A stretch of DNA of 64,000 nt, taken from positions 27,288 to 91,287 of the forward strand of contig CAMDEM010000006.1 of assembly GCA_945896675.1 (NCBI GenBank). The letters run 5' to 3'. This document shows positions 49,530 to 51,981 of the stretch, piece after piece. Every line of letters starts with the position of its first letter. Within the stretch, counting starts at the first letter, position 1. The notes under the pieces were generated by a model, which saw nothing but the letters and a program-made list of their open reading frames with translations, made no database searches and was not told the DNA's origin. This DNA is from Cyanobium sp. NIES-981. GTDB taxonomy: Bacteria; Cyanobacteriota; Cyanobacteriia; PCC-6307; Cyanobiaceae. Both the position numbers and the translations under genes were made by a program.

Positions 49530-50512
49530 TCGGCGAGGGGAATCCCGCCGAGGCGTTCCACCTCCCGCACCCCGGTGGGGCTGGTGACGTTGATTTCGCT
49601 GAGGCGCCCATCGATCACATCGATGCCCACAAAAAACAAGCCTTCTGCCTGCAAGGCCGGCGCCAGGGCCGCGCAGATCTGCCGTTCTGCATCCGTGAGG
49701 CCCGTGGCCTCAGGGGCCCCACCCACGGCGAGATTGCTGCGGAATTCCCCCGCCATCGGCTTGCGATTCACCGCCCCCAGGGGTTCCCCATCCACCAACA
49801 AGATCCGCTTGTCTCCCGCTGTCACGCCAGGGAGGAAGGCCTGGGCCATCACGGGCAGGCGCTGCTGGTCTGTGACCAGTTCAAGTAAGGCCCGCAGGCC
49901 CGGGGCCCCGCCGTGGGAGCGCACCACCCCTTGCCCGGCCCGGCCGCCCAGGGGTTTGAGCACCACATCGCCATGGCCGGTGGCAAAGGCGGCGAGCTGA
50001 TCCACCTGGCTGCTCACCAGGGTGGGGGCCATCAAATGGCTCCAGCGCAGGGCGCCCAGCTTTTCATTCCAGGCCCGAAGCGAGGCAGGCCGGTTCAACA
50101 CCCGCACCCCATGGCGCTCCGCCAACTCCAACAGATGGGTGGCATAGAGGTAGGCCTCATCCACCGGTGGGTCCTTGCGCATCCACACCCAGGGGAAGGC
50201 ATCGAGGGGCAGCTGCTGGGGCTCCCCGAGCAGAAACCAGGGCTCGGGCACCTGCCAGCCCGCTGGGCTGGACTCCATGGGGGCCAGGGTGACGGGCTGG
50301 GCCCGAACCCGGCCACCGTGGCCAGCCAAGGGAGCTCCGGGCCGCTCAGCCGCGGATAGGTCTTGGAGGGTGCAGACCCAAATCTGCTGACCAGCACGCT
50401 GTGCCGCCTGCATGAGGGCCACGCTGGAATCTTTGGCTGGATTGAGCCGCGGAAGCGGATCGATCACAAACAACTGGGAGTTGGTTCCGGGTGCCGGAGT
50501 GGCCAAATTCAA
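49499..50512 (-). CDS. gshB: Glutathione synthetase
   Basis: [82 protein letters not shown]. Confidence 0.95.
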
Positions 50513-50769
50513 GCTCCCAGGATGGGATCGAGCTGGCCACTGCGCTCCAGCGCATGGATGTCATCACAGCCGCCCACGTGCTGGCCGTCGATAAAAATCT
50601 GGGGGACGCTTCTGCTGCCGCCACTCTTGGCCGCCATGGCATCTCTGGCAGCCCCATCGCCATCGATGGCGTATTCGGTGTAGGCAACGCCCTTGCGATC
50701 CAGCAGTCCCTTGGCGCGGATGCAAAACGGGCAGGCCCGCCAGGTGTAGATCTCAACGTTGGCCGCCAT
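50509..50769 (-). CDS. grxC: Glutaredoxin 3-type
   Basis: [24 protein letters not shown] (CPFC); [21 protein letters not shown]; 4-nt overlap with gshB. Confidence 0.94.
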
Positions 50770-50855
50770 TCGGGCTCCCAATCCGGTGGGCCAATCCTAG
50801 AAGCGACGACCCCACTGATACGGTCTTGGCAACGCTTTACCTACGCTTCTGCCAG

Positions 50856-51981
50856 GTGCTCGACCTCACCGACTTCAAGCGCGATCTTTCCGAGCTCACC
50901 GACCGCCTGGGCCATGCCCAGGACTGTCTTTGACGTACCGGCCCTGAAAGCCCGCCAGCAAGACCTCGAACAACTGGCATCCCAGCCCGATTTCTGGGAC
51001 GACCAACTGGCGGCGCAAAAGCAAATGCGCCAACTCGATGAGGTGAAGGCCCAACTCGAACAGTTGGACACCTGGAAATCATCCGTAGCCGATGGAGTGG
51101 CCACCCTCGAGCTCTACGACCTCGAGCCGGATGCCGAGCTCCTCGAAGAGGCCAATGGGGCCCTGCAAACCCTCAAATCCGACCTCGATCGCTGGGAACT
51201 GGAACGCCTGCTGTCTGGCATCTACGACAAGGAAGGGGCGGTGATTTCGATCAACGCCGGCGCCGGCGGCACCGACGCCCAGGACTGGGCGCTCATGCTG
51301 ATGCGGATGTACACGCGTTGGGCCGAAGACCACGGCATGAAGGTGTCGGTGGCGGAACTCTCCGAGGGGGAAGAGGCGGGCATCAAAAGCTGCACCCTGG
51401 AAATTGAGGGCCGCTACGCCTACGGCTACCTCCGCAATGAAAAGGGCACCCACCGCCTGGTGCGGATCTCCCCGTTCAACGCCAACGACAAGCGGCAAAC
51501 CAGCTTTGCGGGCCTGGAGGTGATGCCCAAGCTCGATGAGGAGGTCAAGCTCGACATTCCCGAAAAAGACCTGGAAATCACCACATCCCGCTCCGGTGGC
51601 GCCGGGGGCCAGAACGTGAACAAAGTGGAAACGGCCGTGCGGATCCTGCACATCCCCACCGGCCTGGCGGTTCGCTGCACCCAAGAGCGCTCCCAACTGC
51701 AGAACAAGGAAAAGGCCATGGCCCTCCTGATGGCCAAATTGCTCGTGATTGCCCAGGAGCAACGGGCCGCCGAGATCGCCGACATCCGCGGGGACATCGT
51801 CGAAGCGGCCTGGGGAAACCAGATCCGCAACTACGTCTTCCACCCCTACCAAATGGTGAAAGACCTGCGCACCAGCCACGAAACCACCGATGTGCAGGGG
51901 GTGATGGATGGCGACCTCGATCCCTTCATCCAGGCGCTGCTGCGCCAAGGTGTGGAGGTGGGTATGGGAGCTGAGAGCTAA
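50856..51981 (+). CDS. prfB: Peptide chain release factor 2, expressed via programmed +1 frameshift at CTTTGAC (50928-50934)
   Basis: Zero frame GTG 50856: [25 protein letters not shown] then TGA 50931; +1 frame from GAC 50932: [24 protein letters not shown]...; body has [21 protein letters not shown] and [16 protein letters not shown] (GGQ). Confidence 0.93.

Follow-up and report, generated by a model that had tools for sequence, protein, structure and literature searches.

Results

The prfB locus and its slip site

The DNA analysed here (a stretch of 64,000 nt, referred to as the window) is part of a 1.97 Mb draft genome and carries the prfB gene on its plus strand. The zero frame opens with GTG at 50856, comprises 25 codons and stops at codon 26, a TGA (50931 to 50933) embedded in the sequence CTTTGAC (50928 to 50934). 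The RF2 body occupies the +1 frame, from the GAC at 50932 to the stop at 51981; it scores 469.8 bits against TIGR00020 (cut-off 370), includes the Pfam PCRF and RF-1 domains, and is 99% identical to its nearest public record, a Synechococcaceae MAG. The locus shows the short leader frame, the early in-frame UGA preceded by a slippery CUU and followed by C, and the +1 body of the prfB frameshift cassette: it represents the classical programmed +1 frameshift of prfB, which in itself is nothing new. The original prediction had recognized it as such, and its coordinates check. It had also stated, correctly, that prfB is not simply the 50491..51981 open reading frame listed by the mechanical ORF track.

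Family searches and targeted fetches yielded 301 prfB loci from Cyanobacteriia, among which 103 different 31-mers occur; because two sampling routes were used, some genomes are included twice. CTTTGA is present in 301/301 of these loci and CTTTGAC in 297/301; locus selection required CTT followed by TGA or TAA plus an RF2-like body, and none of the fetched Cyanobacteriia loci was excluded for want of a CTT-stop site. With this degree of conservation the site is not a chance occurrence. In the codon preceding CTT (TGT at 50925 to 50927, the E-site codon), the class uses TAT, TGT, TAC or TGC: taking the C of CTT as position 0, there is a T at -3 in 301/301 loci, A or G at -2 and T or C at -1. 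The base after TGA, otherwise C, is G in L115 and L133, A in L138 and T in L244. Loss of the frameshift in some Cyanobacteriia was considered and discarded, as the loci initially flagged (for instance those on the reverse strand) all carry CTTTGA on inspection. One locus from another class of the phylum (L158) lacks CTTTGA where expected and has an apparently single-frame body, likely reflecting loss of the frameshift.

The position of the start codon, -72 from CTT, is conserved as well. GTG or TTG is found there in 144/151 loci of the same family; outside the family, in the rest of Cyanobacteriia, ATG lies at -72 in 60 loci and at -69 in 78. This conservation supports GTG 50856 as the start, as proposed initially, and the suggested comparison with other cyanobacterial prfB N-termini thus finds both slip site and start position maintained. 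The in-frame ATG at 50914, against which the prediction had warned, was examined as an alternative start and rejected: it occurs in only 107/301 loci and is thus not conserved as a start, and its use would entail loss of the conserved leader. We note that the combination of a GTG/TTG start and a frameshift favours misannotation of the RF2 N-terminus in this family.

A conserved hairpin precedes the slip site

Overlooked in the prediction was a potential hairpin ending 5 nt before the CUU (50906 to 50922). It consists of a 5' arm CCUGGGC (50906 to 50912, positions -22 to -16), a CAU loop (50913 to 50915), inside which the internal ATG begins, and a 3' arm GCCCAGG (50916 to 50922, positions -12 to -6). 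Residues -22 to -17 pair with -11 to -6; a further pair, -16 with -12, is possible across the triloop. The predicted energy of the 20-nt hairpin segment is -13.4 kcal/mol; its 37-nt context folds at z = -4.5, and a folding-energy scan along the region displays a single sharp minimum, at the stem. No Rfam match was obtained in the window.

All six outer pairs can form in 287/301 loci, five in 11 and four in 3, and no insertion or deletion alters the distance between stem and CTT in any of the 301. A pattern combining hairpin and slip site, with at most one mismatch allowed, was found in 112/116 genomes of the class, in one copy per genome save for one genome with two on one contig, while a reversed control pattern gave zero matches in the same 116 genomes. 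In the window the combined pattern occurs once, with none expected. In three of the negative genomes (G159, G182, G202) the family search gave matches at RF1 level only; the fourth, G215, is 68% complete and gave a lower-scoring match. A few Prochlorococcus-like loci (L099/L300, L289 and partly L306) have a decayed stem, with 4-5 of the six pairs and weak energies, and keep CTTTGAC; L289 and L306 also lack the AGGA described below. Such loci offer natural tests of the way frameshifting fares when the stem is weakened.

Evidence for selection on the hairpin at the RNA level

Most pairs of the stem include at least one third codon position. Pair -18:-10, which joins the first base of a Gly/Ser codon to the third base of an Ala/Thr codon, is GC in 55 of the 103 distinct sequences, GU in 19, AU in 26 and other in 3, with A-C never occurring (0). 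At -16:-12 the corresponding figures are CG 52, UA 20, UG 15, GU 1 and other 15. Paired cells make up 96% in the real register as against 54% or less with slid partners, and the score of 0.239, compared with 0.157 upon shuffling, was attained in 0/500 shuffles; both the shuffles and the Fisher tests ignore relatedness. When changes were mapped on a tree built from 163 full-length prfB loci, those at -18:-10 mostly preserved pairing, and about seven at -16:-12 were double C-G/U-A switches. Since most stem columns are nearly invariant, real covariation is confined to these two pairs; for the same reason RNAalifold, applied to the alignment, was limited to the five outer pairs, and its covariation term was weak (-0.4).

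Codon usage provides a separate line of evidence. Among 28 AT-rich genomes, the CTG in the stem is kept in 27/28 and the CAG in 28/28, though CTG represents 5% of the Leu codons and CAG 26% of the Gln codons in the prfB body. Under a synonymous-codon null, P is about 0.01-0.05 in most AT-rich genomes and about 0.3 in GC-rich ones, this one included, so the case rests on comparison and not on this genome alone. At the level of sequence comparison, these data establish the existence and conservation of the hairpin.

The SD-like element and its counterpart in outgroups

Frameshifting in prfB is the textbook example of a bacterial programmed frameshift; in Escherichia coli it is stimulated by a Shine-Dalgarno (SD) duplex beside the E site. 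A strong internal SD is the usual prfB stimulator, albeit not strictly part of the cassette definition, and is commonly held to be nearly universal. Nothing near AGGGGG is found 3 nt before the CTT in the window. The original prediction had pointed to AGGA (50920 to 50923) as a possible stimulator; it does lie 4 nt before CTT, as stated, but the role assigned to it was probably misread. The motif is one base off the canonical SD register, and its predicted duplex with the anti-SD amounts to -4.0 kcal/mol versus -10.8 for E. coli (the 16S 3' end was not found in this genome, so energies were computed with the tail GGCTGGATCACCTCCTTT, taken from 3/6 other genomes). Furthermore, AGG falls inside the covarying 3' arm of the hairpin, and some genomes change AGGA and keep the hairpin. 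While AGGA is kept in 294/301 Cyanobacteriia loci and changed in 7, two of the variants (L213, L229) have AGCA and a stem of 5 pairs, and two (L316, L326) have GGGA with 6 pairs preserved through G-U. AGGA could be a weak, shifted SD remnant or a coincidence.

The picture is reversed in 24 outgroup loci from other classes of the phylum. Here CTTTGA is preceded by AAAGGAGTGT, AGGAGGTCA, AGGGGGTTG or similar sequences, and the anti-SD energies range from -8.2 to -12.0 kcal/mol (median -9.05). The median hairpin energy in this set is -0.3, six weak pairs occur in two loci, and none of the 24 has a hairpin of comparable stability. The medians in Cyanobacteriia are -4.0 kcal/mol for the anti-SD and -11.7 for the hairpin. 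The outgroup pattern suggests that the exchange of SD for hairpin took place on the stem lineage of Cyanobacteriia.

Discussion

A proposed model for hairpin-stimulated frameshifting

In the classical model of prfB regulation, the ribosome slips from CUU to UUU while UGA awaits RF2. The conserved site and established prfB knowledge lead us to infer the same steps here: when RF2 is scarce, the ribosome would pause with UGA in the A site, the peptidyl-tRNA-Leu would slip from CUU to UUU, and reading would resume at GAC. What would differ is the stimulator. We propose that the mRNA hairpin of 6-7 bp at 50906 to 50922 stands in for the SD duplex between mRNA and 16S rRNA. Upon arrival at the shift site, the hairpin would refold at the mRNA exit side with its base 5 nt from the P-site codon, where it may pull the mRNA in the 5' direction and/or block backward movement or destabilise the E-site tRNA, thereby promoting the +1 slip. 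The comparative data make it quite probable that the hairpin, rather than an SD duplex, serves as the RF2 frameshift stimulator at this locus and in Cyanobacteriia generally. It likewise appears likely, from the distribution of the two elements, that the hairpin replaced the SD:anti-SD pairing in the ancestor of Cyanobacteriia and has been kept since, providing a natural bacterial instance of an upstream stem-loop driving a +1 shift. The frameshift itself being known, the hairpin as its putative stimulator is the new part. Several points weigh against this reading: some Prochlorococcus (L099/L300, L289) keep CTTTGAC with a decayed stem, AGGA is itself highly conserved, hairpins are weaker than the SD in vitro (PMC6321510), the pairs could arise from the coding sequence by itself in GC-rich genomes such as this one (P about 0.3), and the covariation is limited to two pairs, with a weak RNAalifold term.

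An ordinary prfB frameshift, with AGGA acting as the internal SD and the hairpin arising as a by-product of the conserved peptide R-L-G-x-A/T-Q-D-Y/C-L and high GC, is an unlikely account of the data. It can draw on the occurrence of AGGA at 294/301 loci and on the synonymous null in GC-rich genomes (P about 0.3), but it fits poorly with third-position covariation in which G-C is replaced by A-U, with the rare codons retained in AT-rich genomes, with the weakness and shifted register of the anti-SD match, and with the four loci where AGGA is altered and the stem intact. Alternatively both elements could matter, the hairpin masking AGGA and thereby adjusting a weak SD, perhaps as a switch sensitive to temperature or growth, in which case the stem would lower frameshifting. 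The location of AGG in the 3' arm lends itself to such an arrangement, since AGG cannot pair within the stem (-13.4 kcal/mol) and with the anti-SD (-4.0) at the same time. However, almost every genome, irrespective of habitat, has a strong stem, so that little SD function would be left, the stem persists at loci without AGGA, and published upstream stems stimulate +1 shifting; we thus hold masking to be improbable. A leader hairpin might in principle also act outside frameshifting, in initiation, mRNA stability or transcription pausing, but its constant 5-nt spacing to CUU at 301/301 loci, in the place where outgroups have the SD, makes such a role very hard to credit.

Relation to known systems

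The E. coli prfB site (AGGGGG UAU CUU UGA C) shares with the present one the early in-frame UGA, the CUUUGAC, the RF2 body in +1 and an E-site codon of the type U-purine-pyrimidine; it has an AGGGGG SD duplex with 3-nt spacing where the present site has a hairpin whose 3' end lies 5 nt from CUU. A parallel to the proposed hairpin mechanism comes from yeast ABP140, where +1 shifting rises from 40% to 60% owing to a stem-loop located 6 nt upstream; the effect is lost when one codon is added, and the stem-loop is thought to pull the mRNA (PMC12661321). Both sites have a conserved upstream stem-loop, a re-pairable CUU and pair-preserving substitutions. Here too a conserved stem lies a few nucleotides 5' of the P-site codon, with a 5-nt spacer, possible re-pairing from CUU to UUU and pairing maintained by covariation; the position of its base relative to CUU makes a geometry similar to that of ABP140 available. 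The yeast case differs in involving the 80S ribosome, another gene and another A-site codon, and function was demonstrated there whereas here it is deduced. Bacterial evidence cited for upstream structures comprises the SD, artificial stem-loops and gene 60 (PMC12661321, 2025). In E. coli extracts, synthetic hairpins placed by the E site at CUUUGA, hence on the RF2 slip site and the 70S ribosome, partly replace the SD, a stable stem giving about 60% of the SD effect, only when RF2 is omitted (PMC6321510). Those stems were designed, with 12 bp, as compared to the natural 6-7 bp stem described here. In bypassing of T4 gene 60, a 5' stem-loop in the exit channel is also thought to pull the mRNA (PMC5009743), although that event is a long bypass involving further signals and not a one-base slip.

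A 2025 survey of prfB in 12,753 genomes described the SD-like element as hyper-conserved (PMC12421855); its main text does not mention cyanobacteria. No description of a prfB hairpin was found in the searched passages of a 2016 recoding review and a 2026 paper on prfB loss, nor did we find a hairpin-stimulated prfB frameshift described for bacteria in the open-licence literature; an earlier mention may exist elsewhere. If correct, the hairpin model suggests that what matters is a duplex beside the E site and not the anti-SD itself. Tractable strains would also allow a direct test of the suggestion, made in 2025, that +1 shifting is stimulated by upstream structures beyond yeast, and tools that seek the prfB cassette by its SD-like motif may miss the cyanobacterial version.

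Split release-factor genes in viral contigs

A scan of viral sequences for the hairpin cassette returned two contigs, neither of them a prfB with hairpin. It led, however, to IMG/VR viral contigs of up to 618 kb (L331-L333, L335-L349), which encode release-factor homologs that lack the N-terminal domain and have RF1 as their best NCBIfam match. Each is interrupted by CTT TGA (CTT TAG in the case of L344 and L346), and the GGQ part continues in the +1 frame. The published prfB survey (PMC12421855) did not find TAG, and the literature searched offered no description of frameshifted virus-encoded release factors. The splits fall into about three positions along the protein, in most cases just 3' of an SD-like GGAG stretch. 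From their sequence, these look like programmed +1 frameshifts. Other phages from the public collection have the release-factor match in a single frame; LR745208.1 (H1), whose match comes in two pieces, is a possible further case.
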